A stretch of 64,000 bases of DNA from Vicia villosa (taxonomy: Eukaryota; Streptophyta; Magnoliopsida; Fabales; Fabaceae): positions 13,514,497-13,578,496 of the forward strand of contig NC_081182.1 in NCBI RefSeq assembly GCF_029867415.1, written 5' to 3'. Under the pieces are notes generated by a model. The model ran no database searches and was not told the DNA's origin. It worked only from the letters and a program-made list of their open reading frames with translations. Positions 2,465 through 64,000 of this stretch are shown here, in pieces. A program made the translations under genes and the position numbers. Positions within the stretch are counted from its first letter, which is position 1. The number at the start of each line of letters is the position of its first letter.

Positions 2465-5400
2465 TCAAGAGTTAACAAATCTGAAAAAACACATCCCCAA
2501 TCTATTCTTTACAAAATCACATCTAATGCCTATGGGGATGGCATCAAAAAGAGTTAGCGAAAGCGAATTGCGGCCTAAATTAGCAAAAAAATCCGCACAA
2601 GAGTTCCCTTCCCTGTAGATATGAGTAATAAAAAAAGACATATTAGCAATTATATTTTTACATCTAAACCACCTATCCCGAAATTGCCAAGGAATTAAGA
2701 CCTCCTTTGAAAAAGCTTGGACGACAATTAAGGAGTCACATTCAATCCAAAGCTTCAACCATGCTCTGTCTCTAGCTATTTCAATGGCTCTGAAAACAGC
2801 AGAGAATTCCGCATCTAAGGAATTCAGCTCCGCTACCGGCTCAGCAAAGGCAAGAACAAAATTACCAAGAGAATCGCGAAAGATACCACCACAGCCACTA
2901 GCAGAGTTGGCAAGAGAGCCGTCACAATTACACTTAATCCAAGACTGAATCGGAGGATGCCAGAGAAACTCAATAACCCGAGGGGCCCGAGGAAAGTTCA
3001 CGGAAATCTTGAAAGATTTAAGCAAGCAGAAGTCAGACATAGATGAAGAGGCACGCAAGACCGAACAATTCCCTGCCAATCTAATTTGGGCCAGAATACC
3101 CGAGACTGTCGAATGAAAAGAAGGAGTGATATTCCGATATCTAGCTCCATTACGGGCCAGCCAAATGAAGGATAAAACAGAAACAATGGCAGCCGAAATA
3201 ACAAGCATACCTTGCGGAGATGTACTACTGCGGCAAAGGTTCCAAACAGAATCCATGGAATGAATGTTGATAGGACAATTAATCATACAGCAGAGCCATT
3301 TCCAAATTCTAACCGCAAAGCGACAGTGAAAGAAGATATGAGAGGTAGATTCACTCTGTAGATTACAGAGGCTGCACCGCGAGCAGAGGCTAAAGCCGCG
3401 AGATTGGAAGGCTTCATCTGTAGGAATCTTGCCGTGAATGAGACGCCAGACAAGAAAGGACTTCGATGGAGCAATATCATTATGCCAAACGATAGCAGGC
3501 CAGGGAAGCTTAATCGAAGGGGACGCTTTAAATTTGTAAGCATCTTTCAATGAAAGTGTACCATCGCAAGAGGAGGGCCAAACCAGAAAATCCGGAAGAG
3601 AAACATGGGGGAGAACATGTGAAATATGCTGCGGAATAAATGGGAAAAGATTGTACCAGAGAATTGGAATGTTCCAGCTCCCGTTGTTCAGAAGATCGCA
3701 AATACGAATGTGAGGGTCAATTCCATTCAAGACGAGAACATGGAGCTGAGTTTTCTCAATAAGGGGCGGTCCGCACCAAGCATCAGTCCAGAATTTAATG
3801 CGAGAACCGTTTCCAATCGACCAAGCGGTGTTAGAATAAAGGCATTGAATTTCAGGCTTAATACTGCTCCATACAGTAGAGAAAATATGATGACGAATAT
3901 AACCGAAATTCCTGAGCACTCTAGCACGAAGCAAACAAGCCCAGTTTTCCTCACTATTGATAAGATCCCAGCCGAGTTTTAAATTGGAAGCATTATTGAG
4001 GGTAATCAAGGAGCGTAAGCCAAGTCCGCCGTGAGATTTAGGTTGACAAACTTTGTTCCAAGCCACTGTAACCAGCTTTTTAGAAGTGGTAGAGCCACTC
4101 CAAATAAAGTTTCGGGAAGCTTGTTCAATGTCTTTGAGGAGAGAAACAGGCTAGGAATAAATGGAGATCGAATGATAAATCATGCTGTGAATAATCGAAC
4201 CAACCAAAGTAATTCTACCTGCATAAGAGAGAAGGGATCCCTTCCAGGCAGCCATCTTGGATATCATACTGTCAGCTAAGTCTTGAAAATGGGCACGTTT
4301 GACCCTCCCTTTAAAGATAGGGACACCGAGATAACGAAAAGGCAAGGAACCTTTGCTGAAACCAGTGAGGCTAGAGAGATGTGTGGCTCTGTTGTTGTCC
4401 ATAGCTCCACAATAAATAAAAGATTTGGCGGTGTTGACGTACTGACCCGAGGCTACCGAGTAATTATGAAATAAATGCTGGAGGGCAGTGATGTTGGAGC
4501 TCTTTCCTTTGCAGCAAATAAGGATGTCATCCGCGTACAGAATGTGAGAAGGAATGCACAAATTTTTGGTAGCTTTCATAGGAAGAAGCTTTCCCGTAGA
4601 AACCAAAGAAGAAATATGTCGACTTAAAACGTCTTCCGCCAAACAAAAAAGAAGAGGGGAGAGAGGATCACCCTGTCGGACTCCCCTCTTGCAGGGAAAG
4701 TAACCATGAATGGAACCATTGAAAGCCACCGACATGTAGGCAGAATCCAAAATAGTGGAAATCCAATGACAGAATGTGTTGTTAAAACCATACCTCTTAA
4801 GCACTTTGAGAAGGAAGCTCCAATTGATGGTATCAAAAGCTTTTGTGATATCTACTTTAAGAACAACATTACCACCAACAGTTTTTTTATCCAAGAGGTT
4901 AGCAATTTCCGAAGCCAGACATAGACAGTCTTTGATGTTTCTCCCTTTTATAAATCCCTTCTAATTCGATGACACCAAAAAAGGCATGATGCAAGAGAGC
5001 CTACCCGCAATGATTTTGGAAATTATCTTGAACTTAAAGTTGGCAAGGGCAATTGGTCTGAAATTCTCCATAGAATCAGCATCTTTAGATTTGGGAATCA
5101 AGATAATCAGATTGGCATTGTAGTTCTGCGGAATCCAACCTTCTTTGAAAAACTGCCAAACTGCATTACACACGTCATTACTAATAATATTCCAGTATGT
5201 ATGAAAGAATACACCACCAAATCCGTCGGGGCCAGGAGCACTGTCTTTGCGAAGACCAAACACCGCAGCTTTGATTTCGTCCACCGAAGGAATAGCCGTG
5301 AGAGTAGCATTCATAGTCTCCGAGACCAGCGAGGGAATAATGTCTGTGATAGCGTTATCTTGGACTGTACCTGCAAAACCGAAGATGTTAGTGAAATAAC

Positions 5401-6595
5401 TGACTGCGTGAGCAGCCATGTCCTCAGGGTCCAGAATCAAAAGGTCCCCATTCCGCAGGCTAGATATCGTGTTTTTGGAACGTTTGATTTTGGAAATTCT
5501 ATGAAAATAAGCAGTATTCCGATCACCCTGTTTATGCCATCTCACTCTCGCCTTCTCCATCCAATAAAGCTCCTCCTTGACTAAAGCGTCTTCAAGATCA
5601 ATTTGAGCTTTAACCTCCTGAGCTTTTAAGGAATCAGTCATGCCAATCAGGTGAATTTGCTCCTGTATGTGATTTAAAAGAGTAGTAGAGGTCTGAACCA
5701 GCTTGTGAATGTCTCCAAAAACCTCTTTATTCCAGATTTTGAGCTTGCCTTTGAGAAGCTTGAGTTTGTGGGACAGGATAAACATGGGGCAGCCAAACAC
5801 AGGTTGAGACCAACAGTCTGCCACAAGAGCCTTGCAAGTATCATGGGAGGTCCACATATTAAGAAACCTGAAATTAGATTTGAAACAAATATGGGAGAAA
5901 GAGGCTTCCAAACAGATGGGGAAGTGATCCGATCTGATTTTCGGCAGGGTGAAAGCATGAGAAGAGAAGCATCTAGTGATCCAAGCTTGATTGCATAGCA
6001 CTCTATCCAGGCGTCTCTCAACAAGGTGAATGCCATTTCTACCATTCAACCAAGTGAAGAAAGGACCTTTGGTGGGTAAATCAGAGAGACAATGAAGATT
6101 AAACCAGTCGCGAAAATCAGAAATAGAGGATCTCGAGGGAGAGATCCTACCACGATGCTCGTGAGCTCCAAGAATGGCGTTAAAGTCACCTAAAAAGCAC
6201 CAAGGAGCGGGATGGTTAACCAGCAGAGAAGAGAGATCAGCCCAAAGGAGTTTGCGGTTGATAGCATTAGTGGAAGCATAAACAGAGGCGATAAAAACAC
6301 AAGAATTGTCAATGACTAAACTGAAAGCGACAAATTGGTCAGAACAATGAATTATCTGAGGGGATAGGTCTTTAGAACAAATACACCAAAGGTTAGGGAG
6401 ATTAAGGGGTCTGTGGTTAGTAGCAAAAACATGAAGGTTGAGAGAACTGAGAAAGTTTGGAGGAAAAAGCTGAAGGTCCATCCAGGGCTCAGCAAGAAAA
6501 CAAAAATCTGGTTTGTGTTTAAGGAGAAAATTTTTTAGAACCAATCTTGTGGGGGAATTGGAGAGACCCCGTGCATTCCAAAAAATGCACTTCAT
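2465..6595 (-). pseudogene. L1 ORF2: endonuclease, reverse transcriptase, RNase H, interrupted by two TAG stops
   Basis: One single reading frame runs 6595 to 2465 (1377 codons including the final stop) and is broken only by TAG at 4961-4963 and TAG at 4151-4153. I found no frameshift. Domains in order: an EEP endonuclease from the start (MKCIFWNARGL, then FLGDFNAIL, then SDHFPI); reverse transcriptase (SAPGPDGFGG, FRPIALANF, KVDITKAFDTINW, RQGDPLSPLLF, and the catalytic YADD at about 4520-4535); a zf-RVT region (CSLCNLQSESTSHIFFHC); and a C-terminal RNase H (CNCDGSLA, then IECDSLIVVQAF). The first stop lies in a motif that is usually N-Q-x-G-F-I-x-G-R, so a CAG-to-TAG change is likely. The element is immobile on its own but very well preserved. 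Confidence 0.9.
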
Positions 6596-7966
6596 CAGAA
6601 AGGCTTAGAGGTACCAGATTGGGATCTGGTGTGGTAACTGGCTTTAGACTTGGCTTTTTGGCGAATTTTCTTTTTTTGGGATTTAGAGGTGACAAGGTGG
6701 AATTTAAGCTGCTCAGGATCAAAGTCGTCATCATCATTATCAGAGATTGCTTCATCTAATCTTTCAGACAAATTGGCCCACGAGGCTTCAAGAAATTTAG
6801 CGTTTGGATCTGCAGGATAGAGTTGTGTGGCATCAACAAATTCAGATTCATCAGAACTCTGATTGCCTGAAGACTGAATGCTATTAGCCACCAATTGAAG
6901 ATTCGCCTGGTTGGCAAGTAATGGAACTAGAACGGGATCAAGAGGCACAGGAATGGGGTCAGGGGGTTGAATCGGAATCAAGGGGCAGACAATAGGATCG
7001 AGAATGGGTCCAGGATCATTATTGTTGTGACTTGAAACATTGGTAGAATGACCAGCCGATTGAGCATTATGGTTAGGAGTTTCCACCTCCACCAAAGGTT
7101 TGGATTTGGATACTTCTTGGTAAAGTTGTTTTGGTTTTTCCTTTGTCTGCATAGGAACAGAATTTTTATCCACCATCAGGTTTTTAGCATCATGTTTATG
7201 AGTAGCAGCTTTCTTTCTTTTACAATCCTCCAAAGAATGTCCAATGAATTTGCAGAAGTTGCAGTAGATTGGCAACTTCTCGTATTCAATATCAACAAAA
7301 AATGCAAATCCCACTCTTTCTACCAAGATTTTGTAGGATAACTCTTTAGCCAGATCTATGTCAACAAGAACTCTGACATAGTGTCCAAAGGCCCTTTCAA
7401 AAGAAGTTTTGTTGGAGGTGGAATCTATACAAATGGGTGTACCAATACTGTTAGCAATCGCAAAGACTATTCGAGGACGCCAATATTCTTGAGCAAGGCC
7501 ATGTATACGAATCCAGACCTGAGTCGAAGACTGATTAGCCGCCGAAGGGATGAAATCCCTGGACCAAGGGAAAAGCTTGAGCATTCCAGGATTAATGTTC
7601 CACGAGTTTGTTGACCTCACCCATCTGACGTCTTCAAGGGAGGAGAAGGAGAATTCAAAGAATCCCTTTCCAAGAGAAGTAACTCCCCATTTAGAGATGG
7701 GGCTCCAAAGTTCTAAGAGTTTAGATTTTAAGGCTACGACAGTAAGAGGGCTTGATCCTTTAGGCCAAATAATTCTACCATGAAGGTTGTGCTTGCAGGA
7801 GGCTAAACCTAGTTGGTACTCCTCTTCAGGAATTGTGATTGAGAGTCTATCTCCCTTAACACAGGGTGTTGGGAGCTGACTAAGAGGAATGTTGCATACA
7901 TTGAGAACTGCATCCGCGAAGGATTTGGGAGTTTTGTTTGGTTGTGAGTTGCCATGACCAGAGGAA
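6595..7966 (-). pseudogene. L1 ORF1 (DUF4283/zinc-knuckle RNA-binding protein), 5' part missing
   Basis: The frame is open from the truncation point (7966) to TGA at 6595-6597. The first in-frame ATG of the long open stretch is at 7620, but homologous coding continues upstream to about 7955 (NKTPKSFADAVLN), with an in-frame stop in the TSD-adjacent bases. The N-terminal part is DUF4283-like (KGFFEFSFSSLEDVRWV, then WSRDFIP). A CCHC zinc knuckle follows at about 7220-7265 (CNFCKFIGHSLEDC). The C-terminal third is low-complexity, with Pro-rich and then acidic stretches (DNDDDDFD) and a basic tail. In plant L1s this protein binds the element RNA. The missing N-terminus makes this copy non-functional. 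Confidence 0.85.
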
Positions 7967-7987
7967 TGTTAGAAGAATAAATTATTT
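7967..7987. repeat. Target-site duplication of the L1 (5' side)
   Basis: Exact copy of 2367-2387. It marks the 5' truncation junction of the L1. Confidence 0.9.
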
Positions 7988-11047: not shown

Positions 11048-13379
11048 TCACTTGGTGGCAGCTGGTGGGCGTGGCACCCATAGAAGGTGCTTAACAGGGA
11101 AGAAATGACACAATGGACCTTCCCCAGGCTTCATTCCAAGTAGGTCAAAATAAAAATGAGTAGGATTCATAGCAGATGTGTCGAGGTGGCAAATTCCCAA
11201 AGCATTCATTATGTCTCCATATTGACCCTTTAGAAGAACCTTGAAAATCTTACTCCCTATGTCTAGGTAGTGGCAATAGTGAAGCAAGTATGGGTAAGGC
11301 CTAGGGTGACATGCTACCCATTTAGGAGCATAGATATCCTCTGAGATATCCAAAACAGTGTAGTTTTGCAAAGGTACAGCTGATGTTGTGGGATAGCTAG
11401 TCGAATGAATGTCATATTTTGTATCTGCGCCAATAACACTATGAACAAATTCAACCATGGACTCTAATGAAGTAGGACAAGCCTTGGTCTCCCCTTTTTG
11501 TGGTTCATACTCACATTGATTAATTATGCCTATCATGTCTTCACCTTTTGGAGAATCTTTTGTGAGTGAGAATAGATCAAGAAGGCTTGGAATTTGTGAT
11601 TTAGAAACCGGAATGTCGTCGGCAACTTTTTTGGGCAAGAAATTAGCATATTCAACGATAGGAAATTGCAAGGTCATTACACTTCCTACATAAAGATCTT
11701 CTATACCAAAAAAAAATACCTTAAATGCTTCTGTATGGTCAACTTTTGAAGGTAGTTTTCTGTCTGATTCCGCATAAGCTTGTCCAGTTTTAATGTGGTT
11801 ATTTGCATGTGAGTCTTTCAACCAACCATCAAGGTAAGCTTGCTTGGAATTCTCAACATGGCTATCTTTCAGCCAGCCATCAAGGTAAACTTGGTTGGAA
11901 TTAGGGGAGGAAATTTCTTTCCCAACCCGTATATCTTTCAACCATCCATCAAGGTAAAGTTGGTTGGAGTCAAGAGTCGGTTTTTCTTTCAAAGCTTGGG
12001 TATTTTTCAACCATCCATCAAGGTAAACTTGGTTGGAGACAAGGTTGGATTTTTCATTTTCGGCTCGGGTATCTTTCAACCATCCATCAAGGTAAACTTG
12101 GTTGGAGTCTGTATTTTCGGCTCGGGTATCTTTCAACCATCCATCAAGGTAAACTTGGTTGGATTCAGGGTTGGCTTTGGCTTTCTCGTTTCTAGTATCT
12201 TTCAACCATCCATCAAGGTAAACTTGGTTGGAGTTAGGGTTGACTTTTTCTTTCTCTGCCCGAGTATCTTTCAACCATCCATCAAGGTAAACTTGGTTGG
12301 AGTCAAGGTTGGCTATGACTTTCTCATCTCTGGTATCTTTCAACCATCCATCAAGGTAAACATGGTTGGAGTTTGCATTTTCAGCTCGGGTATCTTTCAA
12401 CCATCCATCAAGGTAAACTTGGTTGGAGTCAGGGTTGGATTTTGCATTTTCATCTCGAGTATCTTTCAACCATCCATCAAGGTAAACTTGGTTGGAGTCA
12501 GGGTTGGATTTTGCGTTTTCGACTCGGGTATCTTTCAACCATCCATCAAGGTAAACTTGGTTGGAGTCAGGATTGGCTTTGGCTTTCTCGCTTCCAGTAT
12601 CTTTCAACCATCCATCAAGATAAACTTGGTTGGAGTCAAAGTTGACTTTTTCTTTCTCGCCTCTTGTATCTTTCAACCATCCATCAAGGTAAACTTGATT
12701 GGAGTCAGGGGAGGGTATTTGGTTCTTCAGTGGAGTATTTTTTAGCCAGCCATCAAGATAAGGCTGATCAACTTGGTTCATATCTCTTGCAAAGCTTCCA
12801 TGGTTATTCTACAATACAATTGAATAAGGGATATTAATGAGTGGCAAATTAATTTACATATTTTGGATGGTATATATGATTTAAAAAAACACAAATGTTT
12901 ATAGTGGAAGAAATATTCATTATGTAATTTGAAACAAAAATATTTATAGTGGAAGAAATATTCATTATGGAAGAACATTATTAGATAGATATATAATTTG
13001 AAACATAAAAAATAGGAAGTAGAATATTTTTAAATTCATTAGAGCTAAAATCTACATAATTTTGTGAAATAGTATAGAACAACTCGATTCTGAGTATGTT
13101 GAATGCTTGAAAAACAACCAAGAAGAAGCATTTTAGAACTCTACATGATTGTATAATTGCAAATAAAGATGAAAATGATAGATTATAAACATGTTGAAAT
13201 TTTTTATTTTTAACATGCATGCACAATTGCAAATAAAGATGAAATTGATAGATTATTATGATAAATAAATGATGAAAAATATAAGTATAAAAGATAGAAG
13301 CATGCATGCAAATTTAGTAACTCACAATCAGCCAGAGCAAGAGAAAAGGGAGGAGAGACAGAACAACTCTGTGTGTCAT
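11048..13379 (-). CDS. Burpitide-type precursor: signal peptide, 15 core repeats and C-terminal BURP peptide cyclase
   Basis: I infer two exons. Exon 1 (13379-13326) encodes MTHRVVLSLLPFLLLWLI, a hydrophobic signal peptide, and ends at donor GTGAGT. A 517-bp phase-0 intron (13325-12809) ends TTGTAG, and exon 2 runs 12808-11048, giving 604 residues. Residues about 28-350 hold 15 copies of a unit of about 23 residues with core Q-V-Y-L-D-G-W-L-K; the first is QPYLDGWLK, others have L or A at position 2, and one has NH for NQ. Asn precedes 13 of the 15. Residues 380-604 form a full BURP domain: CH-x10-CH-x26-CH-x25-CH-x8-W (CH at 518, 530, 558, 585; W595) and a Cys pair (CEYEP, KACPTSLESM). BURP domains of this kind are copper-dependent cyclases that cross-link Tyr or Trp of cores in the same polypeptide. 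The exact peptide product is unknown. A start at the internal ATG 12779-12781 is less likely because it would lose the signal peptide. Confidence 0.92.
11051..11725 (-). other. BURP domain of copy 1
   Basis: The 225-residue C-terminal domain begins FKVFFFGIEDL and ends WVPRPPAATK. All four CH pairs and the final Trp have the spacing typical of the family. In this family the His/Cys pairs bind copper and drive the oxidative cross-link. No other BURP domain is visible in the window. Confidence 0.93.
11790..12775 (-). repeat. Core-peptide tandem array of copy 1 (15 units)
   Basis: Most units are 69 bp (23 codons); a few have shorter linkers of 4 to 6 fewer codons. The bases coding for core plus LKD are almost invariant between units, while the linker (charged E/K/N/S/P residues) varies. 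A degenerate sixteenth core (QAYAESD) lies just after the last unit. Confidence 0.95.
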
Positions 13380-18182: not shown

Positions 18183-19725
18183 TTAATTATTCTTCAACCA
18201 GATGTCAAGGTAGACTTAGTTGGAGATAAGGGATGAATTTTCTTTCTCAGCTCGTATATCTTTCAACCATCCATCAAGGTAAACTTGTTTAGAGTCAAGG
18301 GTCGATTTTTCTTTCAAGTCCCGATTATCTTTCAACCATCCATCAAGGAAAATTTGGTTGGAGTCAGAGTTTGATTTTTTATTTTGACTCGGGTATCTTT
18401 CAACCATCCGTCAAGGTAAACTTGGTTGGAGTTAGGGTTGACTTTTGCTTTCTCAGCTCGCATATCTTTCAACCACCCATCAAGGTAAACCTGGTTGGAG
18501 TCAGAGTTGGCTTTTTCTTTCTCAGCTCGGGTATCTTTTAACCATCCATCAAGGTAAACTTGGTTGGAGTCAGGGGTAGATTTTTCTTTCTCAGCTCGGA
18601 TATCTTTCAACCATCCATCAAGGTAAACTTGGTTGGATTCAGGGGCGGATTTCACTTTTTCAGCTCGGGTATCTTTCAACCATCCATCAAGGTAAACTTG
18701 GTTGGAGTCAGAGTTAGATTTTGCTTTCTCAGCTCGGGTATCTTTCAACCATCCATCAAGGTAAACTGGTTTGGAATCTGGGTTGACGTTCTTGGCTCTG
18801 GTATCTTTCAACCATCCATCGAGGTAAACTTGGTTGGAGTTAGGATTGATTTTTACTTGCTTAGATCGAATATCTTTCAACCATCCATCAAGGTAAACTT
18901 GGGTAGAGCCAGGGTTAGCATTTGCTTTCTCGTCTCTTGTATCTTTCAACCATCCATCAAGGTAAACTTGGTTGGAGTCAGAGTTAGATTTTTCTTTCTC
19001 AGCTCGGGTATCTTTCAACCATCCATCAAGGTAAACTTGTTTGGAGTACGGGTTGACTTTCTTGGATCTGGTATCTTTCAACCATCCATCGAGGTAAACT
19101 TGGTTGGAGTTAGCGTTGACTTTTACTTGTTCAGATCGGGTATCTTTAAACCATCCATCAAGGTAAACTTGGTTAGAGCCAGGGTCTGCTTTTGCTTTCT
19201 CGCCTCTTGTATCTTTCAACCATCCATCAAGGTAAACTTGGTTGGAGTTAGAGTTAGATTTTTCTTTCTCAGCTCGGGTATCTTTCAACCATCCATCAAG
19301 GTAAACTTGGTTGGAGTCAGAATTAAATTTTTCTCTCTCGGCACGAGTATCTTTCAACCATCCATTGAGGTAAACTTGGTTCGAGTTAGGGTTGACTTTT
19401 GCTTTCTCAGATCGAGTATCTTTCAACCATCCGTCAAGGTAAACTTGTTTGGAGTCAGGGTTTAATTTTGCTTTCTCAGCTCGGGTATCTTTCAACCATC
19501 CATCAAGGTAAACTTGGGTGGAGTCAGGGTTGGCCTTTGCTTTCTCACCTCTGGTATCTTTCAACCATCCATCAAGGTAAACTTGGTTGGAGTGAGGGTT
19601 GGATTTTACTTTCTCGACTCTGGTGTCTTTCAACCATCCATCAAGGTAAACTTGGTTGGAGTCGGGAGAGTGTTGTTGGTGTTGAGTGTTTTTGAGCCAA
19701 CCATCAAGGTAAGGCTGATCAACTT
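18183..19725 (-). repeat. Core-peptide array of copy 2 (about 22 units plus one decayed)
   Basis: Units are of 21 to 23 codons. Cores are almost all Y-L-D-G-W-L-K; exceptions are one YLNGWLK, one YLDGWFK, one IFLDGWLK and a last YLDIWLK. The residue before Gln is N in most, but T or K in several. Units 7-10 and 11-14 are copies of one four-unit block: the linkers SNSNS/ADPGS/VNANS/VNPYS parallel SNSDS/ANPGS/INPNS/VNPDS. Confidence 0.93.
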
Positions 19726-20374
19726 GGTTCAAGTCCCTTGCAATGCTTCCATGGTCATTCTACAATACAATTCAATAAAGTGATATAAATGAGTGACAAA
19801 TTATTATATGTTTTAGATGGTATATATGATTACGAAAACACACGCGCGTTATAAGACACATTCTGTTGTACAATGGAAAAAATTCATTATGTATATATTG
19901 CAGATAGATACATAATTTGAAGCATAAGAATTATGATATTTTTAATTTCATTACAGTAATAAACAACATAACTTTGTTAAATCGTATAGAACAACTCGAT
20001 TATGAATGTGTTGAATGCTTGTAAATTAAAGAAGGAGAAAAATCTTAAAAGCATGTATTAGGCTCTACATGCTTGTACAACTGCAAATAAAGATGAAAAT
20101 AATAGATTATGAACATGTTGAATTTTATTTAATTTAACATGCATTCACAATCGCAAAAAAAAAATATGAAAATGATAGATTATAAACATGTTGAATTTTA
20201 TTTAAGTTAACTTACATGCCAAAATGCAAATAAAGATGAAAATGATAGATTACCATGAAAATAGATGATGAAAATTGTTAGTATAAAAGATAGAAATAAC
20301 ATGTAAAGTTAGTTACTCACAATCAACGAGAGCATGAGAAAAGGGAGGAGAGACAAAACCACTCTGTGTGCCAT
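18183..20374 (-). pseudogene. Burpitide-type core array without BURP domain (copy 2)
   Basis: Exon 1 (20374-20321) encodes MAHRVVLSLLPFLMLSLI, nearly identical to the copy 1 signal peptide, with the same GTGAGT donor. Exon 2 starts at 19759 after TTGTAG, in phase 0. From QPYLDGWLK onward there are 20 cores in one frame to about 18390. One missing base (near 18385) shifts the frame; two more cores follow in the new frame, then TAA at 18216-18218, then a decayed unit (VYLDIWLKNN) and stop TAA at 18183-18185. There is no BURP domain. The DNA that follows resembles the 3' UTR of copy 1. The codon that aligns with the internal ATG of copy 1 is TTG here (19730-19732), which supports the signal-peptide exon as the true start. 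Even with the frameshift, a secreted protein of about 20 intact cores could be made. It is either a decaying relic or a substrate for a cyclase acting in trans. Confidence 0.85.

Positions 20375-27278: not shown

Positions 27279-27328
<50 letters not shown>
27279..27328. repeat. TG/TA microsatellite
   Basis: Short (TG)n then (TA)n tract, ending exactly at the first base of foldback element C. Confidence 0.9.
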
Positions 27329-29154
<1,826 letters not shown>

Positions 29155-46188: not shown

Positions 46189-47396
46189 TGTTAGAACAAG
46201 ATTTGTTCTGATCAATTATCTTAGTTTTGATGATAACAATAATATGAATTTTGCTTAAGATAATATGGTACTCTAATCCAATGCAATTTCCCTTTCAGGA
46301 AATATATAAAGAGTACGCATAATTCAGCGCTCAGAAGCTTTGTCTCAAAGGGTTCAGCATGCAACATCAGAACATGGTCTGGCAAGACATCAGAAGATGG
46401 TCGAAGCAGAATCAGAACATGGGTCTATGGAAGCATCAGAAGAACAAGAGAACAGAAGCACTGAAGTTCTGATGGTATCACGCTCAGAAGCACTTCAAGG
46501 TCAGAAGATCAGAAGATGCTATGCATCAAGCTGTTTGACTCTGATGATATTCAAACGTTGTATTCACAAACATCAGATCAAAAGGAAGTACAAGTGGCAA
46601 GCTACGCTGACTGACAAAAGGAACGTTAAAAGCTATTCTAGGCTACGTCAGTAGACACAGCGTGAACAAGGCTCGAGGTAGTTGACAAAAGCGTATAACA
46701 TTAAATGCGATGCTGTACGGAACACGCAAAGCATTAAATGCACTCAACGGTCATCTTCTCCAACGCCTATAAATATGAAGTTCTGATGAGAAGCAAGGTT
46801 AACGATCCTGAACAAAACAACTCATATTAAACTTGCTCAAATGCTGTTCAAATCAAAACTCAGAATCTTCATCTTCATCAAAGCTCACTACATTGCTGTT
46901 GTAATATATTAGTGAGATTAAGCTTAAACGTTAAGAGAAATATCACAGTTTGTGATTATCGCTTTTAAGAAGCATTTGTAATACTCTTAGAATTGATTAC
47001 ATTAAGTTGTAAGGAACTAGAGTGATCGTGTGGATCAGAATACTCTAGGAAGTCTTAGAGGTTATCTAAGCAGGTTGTAACTAGAGTGATCGTGTGGATC
47101 AGTAGACTCTAGAAAAGTCTTAGAGGGTATCTAAGCAGTTGTTCCTGGAGTGATCAGTGTGTGATCAGAAGACTCTGGAAGACTTAGTTGCTGACTAAGT
47201 GGAAAACCATTGTAATCCGTGCGATTAGTGGATTAAATCCTCAGTTGAGGTAAATCATCTCTGCGGGGGTGGACTGGAGTAGTTTAGTTAACAACGAACC
47301 AGGATAAAAATAACTGTGCAATTTATTTTTATCTGTCAAGTTTTTAAAGCTACACTTATTCAAACCCCCCCTTTCTAAGTGTTTTTCTATCCTTCA
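46189..47396 (+). repeat. 5' LTR of the Sirevirus
   Basis: Begins TGTTAGAACAAGATTTG, ends TTTCTATCCTTCA. It has a TATA-like CTATAAATATG (about 46769) and a later part with repeated CTAGAGTGATCGTGTGGATC units (about 47020, 47082). A 104-codon frame in each LTR is not a gene. Confidence 0.93.
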
Positions 47397-47397
47397 A

Positions 47398-47410
47398 TTG
47401 GCATCAGAGC
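47398..47410 (+). promoter_or_regulatory. Primer-binding site of the Sirevirus
   Basis: TTGGCATCAGAGC, one base after the LTR. It matches the initiator Met-tRNA primer motif TGGTATCAGAGC except for one T-to-C change. Confidence 0.8.
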
Positions 47411-47482
47411 GCCGGTTCTAAGGTGCAAGCACTTAACCGTGTTTAGAAAAGATTCAGGAAGAGAAAAACGCTTCAGTAAAAG

Positions 47483-50400
47483 ATGGTTGATGAAAGTGAA
47501 AAGTCTACACCTGTATCTACATCTGGCTCTGCTGAGCAATACAACGGTAACAATGGTTATACTAGACCGCCGGTATTTGATGGTGAAAACTTTGAATACT
47601 GGAAAGATAAACTGGAAAGTTACTTTCTTGGTCTAGATGGTGATCTATGGGATCTTCTGATGGATGGTTACAAACATCCAGTAAATGCCAGAGGCGTAAA
47701 GCTGACAAGGCAAGAAATGAATGATGATCAGAAAAAGCTTTTCAGGAATCATCATAAATGCAGAACTGTTTTGCTGAATGCTATCTCTCATGCTGAGTAT
47801 GAGAAGATATCTAACAGGGAAACGGCCTATGACATATATGAGTCCTTGAAAATGACTCATGAAGGAAATGCTCAAGTCAAGGAGACTAAAGCTCTAGCTT
47901 TAATCCAGAAGTATGAAGCCTTCAAGATGGAGGATGATGAAGACATTGAAAAGATGTTTTCAAGATTTCAAACTCTTACTGCTGGATTGAGAGTTCTTGA
48001 CAAGGGATACACCAAGGCTGATCACGTAAAGAAGATCATCAGAAGCTTACCCAGAAGATGGGGTCCTATGGTGACTGCATTCAAGATTGCAAAGAATCTG
48101 AATGAAGTTTCTCTAGAAGAGCTTATCAGTGCCTTGAGAAGTCATGAAATAGAGCTGGACGCAAATGAGCCTCAAAAGAAAGGTAAGTCTATTGCATTAA
48201 AATCAAATATCAAGAAATGCACTAACGCTTTTCAGGCTAGAGAAGAAGATCCTGAAGAATCAGAATCTGAAGAAGAAGATGAACTGTCTTTGATCTCCAG
48301 AAGGCTAAATCAACTCTGGAAGACCAAGCAAAGGAAGTTCAGAGGTTTCAGAAGCTCAAAGAAATTTGAACGTGGAGAATCTTCTGATGACAGAAGATTT
48401 GACAAGAAGAAGGTCATGTGCTATGAATGCAATGAGCCTGGACACTTCAAGAATGAATGTCCAAATCTTCAGAAGGAAAATCCCAAGAAGAAGTTTCATA
48501 AGAAGAAAGGTCTTATGGCAACCTGGGATGAGTCAGAAGATGATTCAGACTCTGAAGATGAGCAGGCCAACTGTGCGCTGATGGCGACAGAAGATGACGG
48601 ATCAGAATCTACATCAGAATCAGATTCTGAAGAGATATCCTTGACTGCAAAAAGGACAAAGCACAACATGTCATGGTACCTGGACTCTGGATGCTCACGA
48701 CACATGACAGGAAGAAGGTCTATGTTCCAAGACCTGGTGCTTAAGTCTGGAGGAGAAGTCAAGTTTGGAGGAGATCAGAAGGGCAAGATAATTGGCTCTG
48801 GAACTATAAAGTCTGGTAACTCTCCTTCCATTTCTAATGTACTTCTTGTAGAAGGATTAACACATAACCTCTTATCTATCAGTCAATTGAGTGACAATGG
48901 TTATGATATAATCTTTAATCAAGAGTCTTGCAAGGCTGTAAATCAGAAGGATGGCTCAATCCTATTTACAGGCAAGAGGAAGAACAACATTTATAAGACA
49001 GATCTGCAAGATCTTATGAGTCAGAAGGTGACTTGTCTTATGTCTGTTTCTGAAGAGCAGTGGGTCTGGCACAGAAGATTAGGTCATGCTAGTTTGAGAA
49101 AGATCTCTCAGATTAACAAACTGAATCTTGTCAGAGGACTCCCTAATCTGAAATTCAAATCAGATGCTCTTTGTGAAGCATGTCAGAAGGGCAAGTTCTC
49201 CAAACCTGCATTCAAGTCCAAGAATGTTGTTTCTACCTCAAGGCCATTAGAACTCTTGCACATTGATCTGTTTGGCCCAGTCAAAACAGCATCTGTCAGA
49301 GGGAAGAAATATGGATTAGTCATCGTAGATGATTATAGCCGCTGGACATGGGTAAAATTCTTGAAACACAAGGATGAGACTCATTCAGTGTTCTTTGATT
49401 TCTGCATTCAGATTCAATCTGAAAAAGAGTGTAAAATCATAAAGGTCAGAAGTGATCATGGTGGTGAATTTGAGAACAGATCCTTTGAAGAATTCTTCAA
49501 AGAAAATGGTATTGCCCATGATTTCTCTTGTCCTAGAACTCCACAGCAAAATGGAGTTGTAGAACGAAAGAATAGGACTCTACAAGAAATGGCCAGAACC
49601 ATGATCAATGAAACCAATATGGCTAAGCATTTCTGGGCAGAAGCAATAAACACTGCATGCTATATTCAGAATAGAATCTCTATCAGACCTATTCTAAATA
49701 AGACTCCTTATGAATTGTGGAAGAATAGAAAGCCCAACATTTCATATTTCCATCCTTTTGGATGTGTATGCTTTATTCTGAACACTAAAGATCATCTTGG
49801 TAAGTTTGATTCCAAAGCTCAAAAATGTTTCCTTCTTGGATATTCTGAACGCTCAAAAGGCTACAGAGTATACAATACTGAAACATTGATTGTAGAAGAA
49901 TCAATCAATATCAGGTTTGATGATAAGCTTGGTTCTGAAAAACCAAAGCAGTTTGATAATTTTGCAGATTGTGATATTGATATATCAGAAGTTGTTGAGC
50001 CAAGAAGCAACGCATCAGAAGCAGAGCTTCTCAGAAGCAAAGAATCGGAAGATCAAGTATCAGCTTCTCTGGAGAATTTAAGCATTTCTGAAGAACCAAC
50101 TGTCAGAAGATCATCCAGACTCATCACTGGTCATTCAGAAGATGTCATTCTTGGAAAGAAGGATGATCCAATCAGAACAAGAGCATTCCTTAAGAACAAT
50201 GCAGACTGTCAATTAGGTCTTGTATCTTTGATCGAGCCAACTTCTGTTGATCATGCTCTAGAAGATCCAGACTGGATAATTGCTATGCAAGAAGAATTGA
50301 ATCAGTTTACAAGGAATGATGTTTGGGATCTTGTTCCTAGACCAGATGGATTCAATATAATCGGTACAAAATGGGTCTTCAGAAACAAGCTCAGTGAGAA

Positions 50401-50860
50401 AGGTGAAGTGGTAAGGAACAAAGCCAGACTGGTGGCTCAGGGTTATAGTCAGCAAGAAGGGATTGACTATACAGAAACCTTTGCACCGGTGGCCAGGTTA
50501 GAATCTATTCGTCTATTAATTTCTTTTGCCACTCAACATAACATCACTCTCTATCAAATGGATGTTAAGAGTGCCTTCTTAAATGGTTATATAGATGAAG
50601 AAGTTTATGTCCATCAACCTCCTGGTTTTGAAGACTCTATGTCTCCTAATCATGTTTTTAAACTAAAGAAATCATTGTATGGATTGAAACAGGCTCCCAG
50701 AGCTTGGTATGAACGCTTAAGTTCTTTCCTTCTGGATAATGGTTTCACTAGAGGAAAAGTGGACACTACTCTCTTTTGTAAAACCTTTAAAAGGGATATT
50801 TTAATTTGTCAAATATATGTAGATGATATTATTTTTTTTTGCATTCATATCAAACCCTAG
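47483..50860 (+). pseudogene. Sirevirus gag-pol, truncated in reverse transcriptase
   Basis: A single open frame of 1125 codons. Gag: about residues 25-230 (PPVFDGENFEYWKDKLESY). CCHC knuckle CYECNEPGHFKNEC near residue 312. Protease DSGCSRHM near 402. Integrase: WHRRLGH near 529, LCEACQKGK near 564, then a catalytic D (HIDLFGP), D (SDHGGEF) and E (GVVERKN) with the canonical D-x35-E spacing. RT: QMDVKSAFLNG, LYGLKQAPRAWYERL and the catalytic YVDD near the very end. The frame then stops after a few unrelated residues. The rest of RT and all of RNase H are absent; a full copia polyprotein would run several hundred residues longer. Up to the break the frame has no stop, so the loss was one deletion rather than slow decay. 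Confidence 0.92.
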
Positions 50861-52442: not shown

Positions 52443-53650
52443 TGTTAGAACAAGATTTGTTCTGATCAATTATCTTAGTTTTGATGATAACAATAATATG
52501 AATTTTGCTTAAGATAATATGGTACTCTAATCCAATGCGATTTCCCTTTCAGGAAATATATAAAGAGTACGCATAATTCAGCGCTCAGAAGCTTTGTCTC
52601 AAAGGGTTCAGCATGCAACATCAGAACATGGTCTGGCAAGACATCAGAAGATGGTCGAAGCAGAATCAGAACATGGGTCTATGGAAGCATCAGAAGAACA
52701 AGAGAACAGAAGCACTGAAGTTCTGATGGTATCACGCTCAGAAGCACTTCAAGGTCAGAAGATCAGAAGATGCTATGCATCAAGCTGTTTGACTCTGATG
52801 ATATTCAAACGTTGTATTCACAAACATCAGATCAAAAGGAAGTACAAGTGGCAAGCTACGCTGACTGACAAAAGGAACGTTAAAAGCTATTCTAGGCTAC
52901 GTCAGTAGACACAGCGTGAACAAGGCTCGAGGTAGTTGACAAAAGCGTATAACATTAAATGCGATGCTGTACGGAACACGCAAAGCATTAAATGCACTCA
53001 ACGGTCATCTTCTCCAACGCCTATAAATATGAAGTTCTGATGAGAAGCAAGGTTAACGATCCTGAACAAAACAACTCATATTAAACTTGCTCAAACGCTG
53101 TTCAAATCAAAACTCAGAATCTTCATCTTCATCAAAGCTCACTACATTGCTGTTGTAATATATTAGTGAGATTAAGCTTAAACGTTAAGAGAAATATCAC
53201 AGTTTGTGATTATCGCTTTTAAGAAGCATTTGTAATACTCTTAGAATTGATTACATTAAGTTGTAAGGAACTAGAGTGATCGTGTGGATCAGAATACTCT
53301 AGGAAGTCTTAGAGGTTATCTAAGCAGGTTGTAACTAGAGTGATCGTGTGGATCAGTAGACTCTAGAAAAGTCTTAGAGGGTATCTAAGCAGTTGTTCCT
53401 GGAGTGATCAGTGTGTGATCAGAAGACTCTGGAAGACTTAGTTGCTGACTAAGTGGAAAACCATTGTAATCCGTGCGATTAGTGGATTAAATCCTCAGTT
53501 GAGGTAAATCATCTCTGCGGGGGTGGACTGGAGTAGTTTAGTTAACAACGAACCAGGATAAAAATAACTGTGCAATTTATTTTTATCTGTCAAGTTTTTA
53601 AAGCTACACTTATTCAAACCCCCCCTTTCTAAGTGTTTTTCTATCCTTCA
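52443..53650 (+). repeat. 3' LTR of the Sirevirus
   Basis: Same length (1208 bp) as the 5' LTR. The two differences seen are at the GCAATTTCCC/GCGATTTCCC position and at CAAATGCTG/CAAACGCTG. Confidence 0.93.
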
Positions 53651-55251
53651 GTTGAGCTGTGGGTTCAAATTTTCCAACTTCCTTTTGGTTTCATGAACGA
53701 AGAGGTCGGTGTTCTTATTGGTAATCATATCGGTAAGTTCATTGCCTATGATCAAAAGAACGGATACGGGACTTGGAGGAGATATATGAGAATTAGAGTT
53801 TCTATTAATGTGCAAGAATCTCTGAAGAAAGGTTGGGCTTTTGAGTGGCTTGGAGGCGATGTTATCCATGTTAGTTTCAAATACGAGAAGCTTGGAATCT
53901 TCTGTTTCCATTGTGGTATCCTGGGACATTCTGAAAACTTTTGTCCTAAAATTAACAAGTCAACAAACGAAGAGGTCGTGCGAAGCTGGGGAAATTCTGT
54001 CCGTGCAGAAAATGGCTCTTTTGACAGCAACAATTCGAATAAGTGGTTGAGAGGGGGAGGTCGAGGTGCTGGGGGCAGAAGTCAACATGGTCGTGAAAAT
54101 GGGCGAGTCGGTGATAACGCTTTTGTCAATGCAAACTTGAATGCCACTACTATCAATCACTCCCTATTTGGTAAAGTATTGATAGACAGAGATCCTTCCT
54201 CTAAGCTATTAGTCTTTTACAAACGTGGAAACGATACCGAAACTCAATCCGGAGGGAGCCCAAGCTGGACTTGCTTTAAGCCTTCAGAGAAGATCGAAAT
54301 TGCGACAACAAATTCTTCTTATATGTCCAGCTCTACCAGTGCTAATATGGTGACTCTTCCAAGCGTTAATACGGAGTTGGCGGTTCTGCTTCGAGAGAAG
54401 GCTGCGGTCAGTATAAAGGGCACGCAGGAGTTGAATTGTGTCGTTAACAAGTCTCCAAATGTAGATGTGAAGCAGTATTTTCTCAATCAGGTCGAAGCAC
54501 CAACTTTTTGTAACTCGGTTCTGAACTTGGACAACACAAACGCTGTTGGAAAATTTCTGGAAGTCGAAGCCAGACCCCGGATGCTGCTGATTAACGAAGG
54601 AGGGGGACGGGAAGATGACGAGAGGAGGGATAACACTTTTATGAACAGGTCACGAATTGGCCAAGGTAGCAATGTTGTAAAGAATGTGGAATCTGTAGAA
54701 AGAGGAAGAATTACTCAGGCCCAGAATATATCTCAAATCTCACTTGATGGAAACAAAGTTACCTTTGATAACTTTGCCATAACTCAGTCTGTTGAACCTT
54801 AACAGGCAGCCCTCAATGCACAAGCTATGAGAGACATGACTCAGGCCACGGGACGGATGATAGCCGCTACTGGAACTAAGTTGGAGCGTATAGCAGCCAA
54901 AGATACTTCAGCGGGACAAAACTCTATTAGAATTCCTACCACAAAGGTCTCTATGAAAAATCAAGCTCGCCATAAAATTCCGATTAAAAATATATTGTTG
55001 AATGAAGGGAACAATGTTCTTGAAGATATTTTTGTGGGTTTAACTGTGAAGAAGAGGTCCCGAATAGAGGAGAATGGAACAGCCGCGACAAAGCCCAAAG
55101 CGGCGAAATGTGTGAATGAAGACACAGTCTGTAGTGATGATGCTGGAAAACTCAATTTAGCTGCTGGAAATGACACAACCATGCAGGATGAAGCTGGAAA
55201 CGATGTTGATTTTGTAATGGCAGGCACTGTTAATCAGGCCTGCCAAGAGCC

Positions 55252-58200
55252 ATGAATGTTATTAGCTGGAACTGTCGGGGTCTAGGTAGCCCGAGCACAG
55301 TTCCGAACTTAAAGTAACTCATCCGAAGATATAAACCGGATGTTTTATTTCTGTTTGAAACAATAAGTAATGCTAATGAAATTGAGGAATTACGATATTT
55401 GTTGGGTTTTGAGTCGTGTTTTACTGTTAATAGAGAAGGCAGAGGTGGTGGACTGGCAATTTTATGGAAGTTTTCTAATTTTTGTTTAATTCAGAGTTAC
55501 TCTATCAATCATATTGATGTTATTGTTCATGATTCAAGAGTTGGCAATTGGAGACTCACTGGTTATTATGGACATACTGAAGCTTCTCGTAGGAGGACTT
55601 CTTGGAATTTAATTCGCAATCTCGCTGATTATTCTAATTCACCTTGGTGTATATTGGGAGATTTCAACGATATATTGTCGCCTGATGAAAAAAAGGAAGA
55701 GTAGAAAGACCAAACTGGTTAATCAGCGGGTTCAGACAAGCGGTTCAAGATGCTGGCTTGGTAGACATCCCAATGGAAGGTTACGTATTCACGTGGTTCA
55801 AAAGTCTAGGTACGGCGCGAGCCGTTGAAGAAAAATTGGATAGAGCTATGGCAAACAACGCTTGGTGCGGGCTGTTTCTGAATTCTAAGATGAAGAGCTT
55901 ACCGGCTACAACCTCTGATCACTACCCCATCTTTCTCTGCTGTGATCCGTCTTCGGCTTACGTAACGACTCGGAAAGTATTCAGATTCGAGAATGCTTGG
56001 TTGTTGGAACCAGGTTTCAGTGATTTTGTTCATGAACAGTGGCTTAGACATGGTGAACATTATGACAGTATTATGAAGAAATTGGAAGTTTGTGGGGATA
56101 GTTTGCTTCACTGGAGTAAAAATAATAGCAACAAGACTAGAACTGATATTGAGAGTATCAGTAGAAAGCTTAATATTATTAGACAGCATGTTGAAGGGGA
56201 TAATTTTAATTACTTTTCAGCTCTTAAACGCCGCTTGAATTCTCTTCTGGTTAAAGATGATATATTCTGGAAACAAAGAGCAAAAGTGCATTGGTATAAG
56301 GACGATGATTTGAATACTCGCTTCTTTCATATTTCTGCTTCTACTAGAAAAAATATCAATACAATTCGGTCGCTCACTAATGATGATGGGGAAGTTATCA
56401 GAACTTCGGAAGGGATGTGTAAATTAGCTCATGACTACTTTATTGATTTATTTCAGAAAAAGCCAAGTTCTCGGGACCAGGTTCTTAAAGCTATTAACAC
56501 ATCCATTACTACTGAAGATAACAATATGTTGACTAATCCGTTTGTTATTACTGAATTTAAAGAGGCTATTTTTTCTATGCAAGCGGATAAAAGTCCGGGT
56601 CCTGATGGTTTTAATCCCGACTTCTACCATCAATTTTGGGATATATGTGGGGTCGAAATCTTCAATGCCAGTTGCTTATGGCTGGAAAGCGACATTTTTC
56701 CTGATAAGCTCAATTCGACAAATATCACTCTTATTCCGAAAGGAGATTCCCAAACCACCATGAAAGATTGGAGACCGATTGCACTGTGTAATGTTTTGTA
56801 TAAAATTATAGCTAAAGTTCTCGCTAATCGGCTTAAGCGAGTCCTTGACATATGTATTTTTGATAACCAATCGGCTTTTGTGCCGGGAAGATCTATTTTG
56901 GACAATGTCATGGTAGCTATTGAGTTGGTGCATCATATGAAGGCAAAGACTAAAGGTAAGATTGGAGACATAGCTCTTAAACTTGATATCAGCAAAGCTT
57001 ACGATAGAATGGATTGGGATTATCTTAAGTATGTACTTTCTACTATGGGTTTCTGTCAGAAATGGATTGGGTGGATTATGCTTTGTGTAGAAACTGTTGA
57101 TTATTCTGTGGGTGTGAATGGTAACATGGTGGGTCCGATTGTTCCGGGACGGGGATTGAGGCAAGGTGACCCTTTGTCTCCGTATTTGTTTATTTTATGC
57201 TCTGAAGGACTCTCAGCCCTCATTAAACAAGCAGAAGCGCGAGGAGATATTCATGGTGTTAAAATTTGTAAGAATGCTCCCATTATCTCTCATTTACTTT
57301 TTCCCGACGATTGTTTCCTTTTCTTCAGAGCAGCTGTTAGCGAAGCAAATATGATGAAGAATATTCTTACCACTTATGAAGAAGCCTCTGGTCAAGCTAT
57401 CAATTTCCAGAAGTCTGAATTCTATTGTAGTAGAAATGTTGATTTTGGACTTAGAAATCTCTTGGCTGGTACCTTAGGAGTTCAACAAGTATTAGGTACC
57501 GGAAAACATCTTGGTCCCCTCTATGATAGGAAGAAACAGGAAAGCTACTTTCAAGTTTATCAAAGACAGAATTTGGAAGAAGATAAGCTCTTGGAGTAGT
57601 TGAAGTCTCTCGCAAGAAGGTAGGGAAATGCTTATAAAATCTGTTCTCCAATCTATTCTGACATATATTATGAGTATCTTCTTACTTCCTTCCTCCTTGA
57701 TTGATGAAATTGAAAAAATGTTGAACTCGTTCTGGTGGGGTCATACAAAAGATAACTCAAGAGGTATTCATTGGTTATCATGGGACAAGCTATCTATGCC
57801 TAAGAAATTTAGTGGTATGGGGTTCAAAAATCTAAGTGCTTTCAATTATGCCATGTTAAGCAAACAAGCTTGGAGCCTTATGACTAAGCCTAACACCTTG
57901 TTTCGCGCCTTTACAAGGCTAGATACTTTCCCAAGTGTGATTTTCTTAGTTCAGAGATTGGACATAATCCGAGTTACGTCTGGCGTAGTATTTGGAGTGC
58001 TAAATTTGTGGTGCGAGGAGGGTACAAGTGGAGCATTGGTACGGGCGAGTGCATCTCGGTTTGGGATCAAAACTGGTTATACGACAGCTCTGCGGTTACT
58101 AATTTGTGGCCCGACAATCCGATGGTGGCAAATCTCAAAGATTCGGATCTTATTAACCCAACTGGCAAACAATGGAAGTTGAATTTGATTTATCTGTTAG

Positions 58201-59333
58201 TAGGTGGTGAAGTGGCGCAGAAAATTGCAAACACTCCATTATTCGAAGCGGTTCATGAGGATAGAGTGTTTTGGAATCTTGAGAAGAATGGTATTTTTTC
58301 TGTGCGTAGTGCCTATCGTTACTGTGTCAACGAAGCCATAGACACCTCTCATCTGCGTATTGTTAAAAATTGGGGTTTAATTTAGAATATGAAGATCCCT
58401 CCAAGAGTCAAGAACTTCCTGTGGCGCTTATGTAGAAATTATGTCCCTACTAGAACACGCCTCATTGACAAAGGTGTCGGGTGTCCTGATAGTTGTGTGA
58501 TATGTGGGAATGGTTATGAGAATAATAATCATTTATATTTTCAGTGTCCTAAGAGTATTGTCTGTTGGGAAAAAGTGGGGCTTTGGCAAACTATTCAGCA
58601 GTTAGTCAACAACGAAGGAGATTTTAGTTCTGTTGTATTTTCTTTTATGCAGGTCTCTACTCATGAAAATCAGGCGGTCTTTTCTACTATCTTGTGGAGT
58701 ATTTGGAAAAGAAGAAACAATGCCCTTTAGAATCAAATCGAGGATTCTCCAGATAATATCTGCTTGCGAGGTTCGCATCTATTATCAGGTTGGCGAGACG
58801 CTCAACGGGCCAGGAACATAGCTTCTCCTATAGATCAATCAGTAACCGATCCTAAGTAGTGTAAGCCACACACCGGTTGGCTAAAATGCAACATTGATGC
58901 ATCTTTTTCTAGCAACAAGGTTGGTATAGGTGCCTGTATCAGAAATGATGAGGGTGTTTTTATTACAGCTCGGACAGAATGGCTTTCTCCTATTACTGAT
59001 GTTGATACCGGCGAAGCTCTTGGACTCTTAGCTGCTATTAATTGGGTTTTGGACCTTGGCTATGATAATGTGGTTTTCGAGTCGGACTCTAAAAGTGTAG
59101 TGGATAGTGTGACTATTCCTAAGCCAAACGACTCAGATTTTGGCGCCATTACTCGAGATTGTTATCAGGTCCTGACTCACTCTACTAGGAATTTTCAGGT
59201 TAAGTTCATTAGAAGACAAGCTAATGAAGTTGCTCATGCTTTGGCTAAGGCGGCTCCATCTCTTGCTAGTTTTCATGTTTTTAACGATGTACCTACTTGT
59301 ATTTACAATCTTATTATTAATGAAATGGTTTAG
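55252..59333 (+). pseudogene. L1 ORF2: endonuclease, RT, RNase H, with several stops and frameshifts
   Basis: Starts MNVISWNCRGLGSPS (EEP endonuclease). TAA lies at 55315-55317, and a frameshift in the A run at about 55688-55694. The endonuclease then continues (TWFKSLGTARAVEEKLDRA, SDHYPIFL). Reverse transcriptase: SPGPDGFNPDFY, DWRPIALCNVLYKI, KLDISKAYDRMDW, RQGDPLSPYLF. The catalytic box usually read F/Y-A-D-D is FPDD here (57301-57312). There are frameshifts near 57500-57540 and 57910-57920. The zf-RVT region follows (PPRVKNFLWRL, CVICGNGYENNNHLYFQC), then TAG codons at 58383-58385 and 58728-58730, and another near 58857. The C-terminal RNase H (CNIDASFSSNKVGIGACI, FESDSKSVVDSV) ends at 59331-59333. 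It is non-functional. Confidence 0.9.
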
Positions 59334-63139: not shown

Positions 63140-63790
63140 CTTTCACATCCTTAGCCTATTTTAATGCCATGTTTTATGAAGATGCTGCTTTTTTTTCTTT
63201 CTATTTTTAATTGTTTATCCATTTCTCTTATATTCTGATTGGAATATATTGCACCTACATACAATTATATGTTATCTTTATATGTTTTATTAATTTTATT
63301 TGAATTGTTTGAGGGTAATTCTATTGATATAATCGTGCATAGCGACATAAAAAGATACAATATGTGACTACCACTTAGTGTTTAATATGACATCCATTTA
63401 TTATTTCAATAATCTTTTTTACATAACAAATTGAGGTTTATTTTTAACTCTCAATAATATAATATGACATCCGCTTAGTATTTCAATAATCGTTATCACA
63501 TGACAAATTGAGGTTTATTTTTAACTTATTATTTAGTATACAGAACCAATACCTTATTTAGTACAATAACAAAAAAACAAGAGCTTAATTAGTACACAAC
63601 AACAATAATCAAGTTTCTTTTTTCCACTAGAAAATCCTTATTTAATACTTAATACTGAAGCAATAGCTTAATTAGTACACAATAATAACCAAGCATTTTG
63701 CCACTAAGTTGGAACCTAATTAGTACACAAACAAGACCTTACTTAGGAACAAAAGTAAGATATTACAATACACAGACTAACATATATGAA
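63140..63790. repeat. 3' flank shared with copy 2
   Basis: Homologous to 17520-18182 over nearly its full length, in the same orientation relative to the array. Small indels and substitutions are scattered along it. Confidence 0.85.
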
Positions 63791-64000
63791 CTAATTATCT
63801 TTCAACCAGCCATCAAGGTAAACTTGTTTGGAGTTAAGGTTGACTTATGCTTTCTCAGCTCGCATATCTTTCAACCATCCATCAAGGTAAACCTGATTAG
63901 AGTCAGAGTTGGCTTTTGCTTTCTCAGCCCGGGTATCTTTTAACCATCCATCAAGGTAAACTTGGTTGGAGTCAAGGTTGACTTTGGCTTTCTCGTCTCT
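63791..64000 (-). pseudogene. Burpitide-type core array without BURP domain (copy 3, 3' end only)
   Basis: Three cores (Q-V-Y-L-D-G-W-L-K) lie inside the window and the array continues beyond 64000. Reading on the minus strand, two cores are followed by TAA at 63845-63847, where copy 2 has a Lys codon (AEKAK). One further core (KQVYLDGWLKDN) follows, then TAG at 63791-63793. No BURP domain follows. The signal-peptide exon is outside the window, so I cannot say whether the 5' part is intact. Confidence 0.85.

Follow-up and report, generated by a model that had tools for sequence, protein, structure and literature searches.

Fused and BURP-less genes for a common YLDGW core in Vicia villosa, a candidate Trp-type burpitide family

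The fused gene f3 and its cluster

The window analyzed here, the whole stretch of 64,000 nucleotides from Vicia villosa (RefSeq assembly GCF_029867415.1, contig NC_081182.1, hereafter C3, positions 13,514,497 to 13,578,496 of the forward strand), contains on its reverse strand a fused gene, f3, that begins with an ATG at 13379 and ends with a TGA stop codon at 11048-11050 in the window translation (table 1). The initial annotation had placed a precursor fused to a BURP domain across 11048..13379 with an inferred splice; these coordinates proved exact, and the splice junction appears to be shared with relatives, the annotated proteins P0001-P0004, P0006, and P0007 reading through the same site. 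The f3 protein (604 aa) carries a predicted signal peptide (MTHRVVLSLLPFLLLWLI) encoded by exon 1, in line with the proposed secretion, followed by 15 cores, the number first given. Eleven of the cores read QVYLDGW and one each QPYLDGW, QLYLDGW, QAYLDGW, and HVYLDGW; all except the last (14/15) fit the original pattern Q-[VPLA]-Y-L-D-G-W, and both the lyciumin pattern QPxGVxxW and the moroidin pattern QLLVW are absent from the f3 cores, as had been noted. The BURP domain (PF03181, E = 1.7e-61 in a Pfam search) is complete, with four CH pairs spaced CHx10CHx26CHx25CH, within the CHx10CHx25-27CHx25-26CH arrangement expected of the domain, and a Pfam score over the cut-off. A search of the window for a 15-base core pattern with at most two mismatches gave 42 matches (1.2 expected in shuffles), of which 15 lie in f3, 23 in the BURP-less gene s1, 3 in the s2 array at the window end, and a single stray at 44766.

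Table 1. Features of f3, s1, and s2, numbered from the first letter of the window.
Feature	Position	Strand	Basis
f3 exon 1, signal peptide MTHRVVLSLLPFLLLWLI, 54 nt	13326..13379	-	translation and splice common to annotated relatives
f3 intron, 517 nt, phase 0	12809..13325	-	GTGAGT donor, ATTGTATTGTAG acceptor; likewise in six cluster sister genes
f3 exon 2 including stop	11048..12808	-	translation
15 f3 cores, xxYLDGWLK[D/N], mostly 69 nt apart	11822..12760	-	repeat pattern and translation
f3 BURP domain	11072..11713	-	Pfam PF03181, genome search at the same place, fold match to 8sy2
			
s1 exon 1, signal peptide MAHRVVLSLLPFLMLSLI	20321..20374	-	translation
s1 exon 2, BURP-less array, 20 in-frame cores, then 1-nt frameshift and stop	18332..19759	-	translation, no BURP remnant
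s2 array 3' end (BURP-less, 483 aa, 20 cores; rest beyond the window, L011)	63848..64000	-	translation
s2 stop and one final core outside the open frame, ending LKDN*	63786..63847	-	translation

A scan of 264 kb (C3:13424497-13688496) identified eight core arrays and four BURP domains, with no BURP domain in the scanned region beyond those of the fused genes f1 (742 aa, 21 cores), f2 (761 aa, 22 cores), f3, and f4 (581 aa, 14 cores). Each of these four encodes its presumed cores and a BURP domain in one polypeptide, the arrangement of a fused pathway. The BURP-less members are s1 (493 aa, 20 in-frame cores), s2 (483 aa, 20 cores), s3 (435 aa, 18 cores), and one decayed fragment, and f1-f4 and s1-s3 all have the signal exon of 54 nt, followed by an intron in phase 0 that measures 459-569 nt. 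Overall, f3 is not the sole copy: C3 holds four fused genes and about 20 BURP-less arrays with the same core, two of which lie wholly or partly in the window. In s1, three further cores continue out of frame downstream, to about 18183, and a tblastn search of the window with the BURP domain detected no BURP remnant after s1, matching f3 and otherwise giving only E values above 3. Pfam matches to Myosin_N and Methyltransf_30 on the arrays were taken as repeat artefacts.

The annotated V. villosa protein P0002 matches f4 (581 aa, identical BURP domain); it was the only one of f1-f4 returned by the protein search, and f1, f2, and f3 may be unannotated. The gene is not confined to hairy vetch: the protein search also found annotated relatives in pea, faba bean, grass pea, clovers, Sesbania, and Prosopis.

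Several further features were observed. Direct repeats at 46189-47400 and 52443-53654 of the window (99.75% identical over 1212 nt) flank a copia-type gag-pol frame (47480-50860) and look like a recent LTR retrotransposon; reverse-transcriptase/endonuclease-like frames at 2465-7968 (reverse strand) and 53633-59333 (forward strand) look like plant LINE elements, and a 1.7-kb segment (27287-28952) with an 80% match to its own reverse complement is perhaps an inverted-repeat element. On C4 (about 179.0-179.2 Mb), the loci L005, L006, and L007 represent another multi-repeat fused BURP family in vetch, in which repeats of about 20 residues (NGF[RG]YHHAASEPDVNSxEL) precede the BURP domain and are possible cores.

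Conservation of the core and the predicted ring

A total of 282 cores from 14 vetch loci were compared. Trp is present in all 282, Asp and Gly in 281 each, the post-Trp Leu, Lys, and Asp/Asn in 280 each, Leu in 277 (Ile 4, Val 1), Tyr in 276 (Phe 6), and Gln in 268; the position after Gln varies, and the position three before Trp is Leu, Ile, or Val in 282/282. A looser match with up to four substitutions left the vetch count and residues unchanged. Among 224 cores from 21 proteins (f3 and s1 included), Trp is found in 223, Tyr in 220 (Phe 2, Ser 2), Leu in 214 (Val 5, Phe 3, Ile 2), and Gln in only 154, several Trifolium cores having no Gln; the looser match raised this set to 225 cores with Trp in 223, adding one Trp-to-Arg change. 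The block YLDGW-L-K-[D/N] is constant, but the core start at Gln, present in only 154/224, is not a safe boundary.

It is unlikely that the repeats are structural elements of a wall or seed protein that stay in the protein, crosslinked or not, and release no free peptide. For many BURP proteins no peptide product is known, and the relatives of f3 carry polygalacturonase-beta-like or RAFTIN-like annotations, as such a role would allow, but the core stays constant while the spacers vary (dN/dS 0.33-0.68) and Asx flanks most cores on both sides (Asn/Asp precedes the Gln position in 164/224 cores and follows WLK in 221/224), both of which are expected of excised peptides. Furthermore, the layout equals that of proven fused precursors, as described in the accessible part of PMC11253845.

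The cores described in the accessible part of PMC8672867 end in a linked Tyr or Trp, with partners that include Leu and Ile, and the links given in that of PMC11253845 are Leu2-Trp5 in QLLVW, Ile2-Trp5 in QILFW, and Leu-Tyr in FLWGY. YLDGW has the same i,i+3 geometry as these published cores and an aromatic-Leu-x-Gly-aromatic plan like that of FLWGY. Conservation alone does not pick out the ring, since Tyr (276) and Leu (277) are kept alike among the 282 vetch cores and Asp, Gly, Leu, and Lys are conserved as well. The initial annotation held that the linked residue cannot be read from the sequence; this stands for the choice between C-C and N-C bonding, but the likely ring can be narrowed to the constant pair, Trp and the aliphatic residue at position -3. 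A Leu-Trp ring would be the best guess, with about even odds for the exact pair.

A ring through the phenol of Tyr3, as in cyclopeptide alkaloids, with Trp kept for recognition, would account for the Tyr found in 220/224 and 276/282 cores and would agree with the use of Tyr by many BURP cores, but it appears improbable given that Tyr is replaced by Phe in 6/282 cores and by Phe or Ser in 4/224, that Trp is replaced never in vetch and once elsewhere (twice when the match is loosened), and that the linked aromatic residue, here Trp, is C-terminal in the known cores covered by the accessible part of PMC8672867.

A tree of 57 BURP domains (6 of 63 sequences dropped, no anchor) separates 23 Trp-core rows from 33 Tyr-core rows, labeled by motif count with one row unlabeled, by a single branch with a support of 100/100. 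The sister clade comprises Tyr-core legume BURP proteins (P0019-P0053) with PYI[TA]GY repeats, which resemble the f3 family in the aromatic, aliphatic, and Gly positions but carry Tyr in place of its Trp. The residue three before the last Tyr in 472 YxxxY matches of the Tyr-core set is Ile in 261, Leu in 64, Ala in 28, Val in 20, and others in the remainder. Tyr-core sisters (P0019-P0056) also occur in other legumes, oak, pecan, and walnut and are likely precursors of the cyclopeptide-alkaloid type. Residue 565 of f3, in the third CH motif (CHLDTSxM), is Met in 16/16 Trp-core rows and Trp in 20/20 Tyr-core rows. Met is also found at this position in AhyBURP and in two USP-type vetch proteins; as the latter have no visible core of this kind, the residue was rejected as a Trp-core switch, and the difference may reflect lineage only.

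A Trp-type burpitide family is favored with moderate confidence, one in which each fused cyclase would join Leu(i) and Trp(i+3) within its own cores and the free arrays would probably be cyclized likewise, in trans. According to this model, f3 would be a fused burpitide precursor-cyclase of a legume family with the core YLDGW, its cores lying in an N-terminal repeat domain; fused precursors of this layout are termed type II. The protein would enter the secretory pathway, and its copper BURP domain would oxidatively join the core Trp to the side chain of the aliphatic residue (Leu, or in some cores Ile or Val) three positions upstream; the resulting Trp-linked ring would be spaced like those of stephanotic acid and cercic acid. 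The peptide, once ringed, would be released by proteases; the Asx residues that flank most cores would be suited to asparaginyl endopeptidase, and cleavage by this enzyme after Asx is a plausible release route. Fused cyclases are known to act on their own cores. The approximately 20 BURP-less sister genes may supply extra core as free substrate, which the four fused enzymes, or some other BURP protein, would cyclize in trans.

Origin, number, and selection of the BURP-less arrays

The s1-s3 genes descend from fused BURP genes by one loss of the BURP domain. In an alignment of s2 to f3 (74 columns), the s2 3' end matches the fused 3' UTR, starting 17 nt beyond the BURP stop codon, and s1 aligns with s2 across about 690 nt, as expected from a BURP domain that was cut out. 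The link between s1 and the fused 3' UTR is made through these two alignments; in a direct alignment to f3, the best match of the s1 3' flank fell at a place other than expected. A tree built from promoter, exon 1, and intron sequences splits s1-s3 from f1-f4 with a support of 100/100, which indicates a single BURP loss for s1-s3.

A protein search with a 179-aa array query returned seven matches, of which four have no BURP domain (P0060 from V. villosa and P0061, P0063, and P0064 from pea), whereas none of the 18 matches to a 475-aa array query is without BURP, a contrast explained by a length filter. A genome search with P0060 located further C3 arrays at 13.69, 14.32, 54.2-54.6, and 212.1-213.0 Mb, and as 150 of 250 candidates were scored the array counts are lower bounds. 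Among the matches listed, C3 contains at least 20 BURP-less array starts whose open frame spans 390 aa or more (17 from the P0060 search plus s1, s2, and s3), and seven further array starts are broken. Ten of the 20 (s1, s2, s3, and L040-L046) were read as DNA, with L040 extending past the stretch examined. None of the ten contains BURP motifs, and in nine the reading frame is open from the beginning of exon 2, the exception being L042 with a stop codon in the leader. They are multi-core and BURP-less, and by their signal exon would be secreted, the make-up of split precursors; this exon is present in 8/10 and lies outside the examined stretch for L043 and L044.

A strict DNA pattern for YLDGWLK[D/N] matches the genome exactly at 550 places, while its reversed control matches at 0; 65 of the matches lie in f1-f4 (first 100 places listed) and about 485 elsewhere. 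None of the 92 BURP matches in the 2.03-Gb genome (98/98 candidates scored) is located at C3 54 or 212 Mb. Candidate separate cyclases for the free arrays are f1-f4 and other BURP genes, for example that at C3:13763266. A leader of the form ARYIK...EEK...DQ[SP]YLDGWLKNPLKNQK is common to three pea proteins and to the arrays that were read at 54 and 212 Mb, and this leader class therefore appears to predate the pea-vetch split. The pea-type leader is nearer to the fused proteins of clover and Sesbania than to f1-f4, which suggests, from this short leader only, a separate BURP loss.

Strong purifying selection on the cores persists after BURP loss. In unit-matched pairs (equal length, at least 85% identity, a choice that favors similar units, with pairs that are mutually dependent), core dN/dS is 0.10-0.12 in s1-s2, s1-s3, and s2-s3 (5-6 synonymous and 3 nonsynonymous changes per pair), 0.02-0.05 for s1-s3 against s5, and 0.03-0.09 in four class-B pairs, with Fisher p from 3.5e-10 to 2.2e-5 for the s5 and class-B comparisons; the spacers give 0.33-0.68. 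Gene conversion among arrays may contribute to the likeness of the cores. Values from a plain MAFFT alignment did not serve as main evidence, since the divergence of the spacers in it showed that repeats were out of register.

It is also rather doubtful that the arrays lacking BURP are remnants of fused genes in decay and supply nothing. Every s-group array read (s1, s2, s3, s5, and s6) has a stop codon or frameshift near its 3' end and, as relics would, L042 has its leader stop, and one fragment and a further seven array starts are broken. However, a neutral simulation run on the present open frames (d 0.12, the flank and intron divergence) predicts 8.9 stops in s1 and s2 together and never fewer than 2 in 1000 runs; one stop and one frameshift are observed, each close to the 3' end. 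For core changes it predicts 42, with a minimum of 23, where 3-4 differences are observed. The core dN/dS of 0.02-0.12 likewise argues against relics, as do the gaps in flank and intron, of which 19/23 are not multiples of three, and, in pea, three proteins with this class of leader that are annotated without BURP, although these are short and might be frameshift-cut.

Relation to known burpitide systems

Burpitides are defined by a macrocyclic bond that a BURP domain forms. Fused and split burpitide pathways are already known, and according to the accessible part of PMC11250218, moroidin cores belong to a fused protein in one plant but are stand-alone elsewhere. The peanut protein AhyBURP (legumenin; 8sy2, 8sy3) resembles f3 in the BURP fold, the four CH pairs, and the core Trp, but its one core (QPYGVYTW) lies inside the BURP domain, a position at which f3 has no core, whereas the 15 cores of f3 lie in the N-terminal repeat domain. 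CcaBURP1, CcaBURP2, and KjaBURP (cercic acid QILFW, stephanotic acid QLLVW, and moroidin QLLVWRGH) are fused like f3, with repeat cores before the BURP domain and an aliphatic residue three before Trp; f3 differs by the core YLDGW, by the lack of a Gln directly before the aliphatic residue, and in that its ring is predicted. With the stephanotic acid type, which is defined by a bond from a Trp indole carbon to another carbon, the f3 cores share the aliphatic-x-x-Trp spacing only. LbaLycA (lyciumins, QPxGVxxW) is likewise fused, with many cores, a C-terminal Trp, and a frequent N-terminal Gln, but the f3 core has no Gly four before Trp and its spacing differs. In the split system of coffee (ArbA2 and ArbB2, arabipeptin, FLWGY), ArbA2 is BURP-less and multi-core like s1, and the plan of FLWGY resembles that of YLDGW; ArbA2 belongs to the PF10950 family, whereas s1-s3 descend from fused BURP genes and a Pfam search of s1 gave no match to PF10950 (DUF2775) up to E 1.

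The openly accessible literature searched gave no report of the YLDGW core, so that an earlier prediction in supplements or in subscription papers, including the primary burpitide papers, is possible; within the same limits, no report was found of a genome whose own fused genes gave rise to BURP-less precursors. In the full-length transcriptome paper on V. villosa (PMC11644882), the main text does not mention BURP, and PMC9219011 and PMC12515232 mention one BURP gene each, which is not shown to belong to the YLDGW family.

Taken together, a tentative picture, given slightly less than an even chance, is that of one genome with both architectures for one core, in which the BURP domain was lost at least once and probably twice and about 20 selected substrate-only genes outnumber four cyclases that would act in trans on free YLDGW to form an undescribed Trp-ring class. 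The s1-s3 genes represent an apparent intermediate in the origin of a split pathway: promoter, signal exon, and intron match those of the fused genes, no BURP domain stands between their final core and the 3' UTR, and the cores were conserved afterwards, whereas the split precursor ArbA2 comes from the unrelated family PF10950. Pea, faba bean, and vetch make the trans action of a fused cyclase directly testable, as well as the question of whether the change in the last aromatic residue of the core (Tyr vs Trp) accompanied a change in the BURP domain, and the genes of the YLDGW family sit in common crops.
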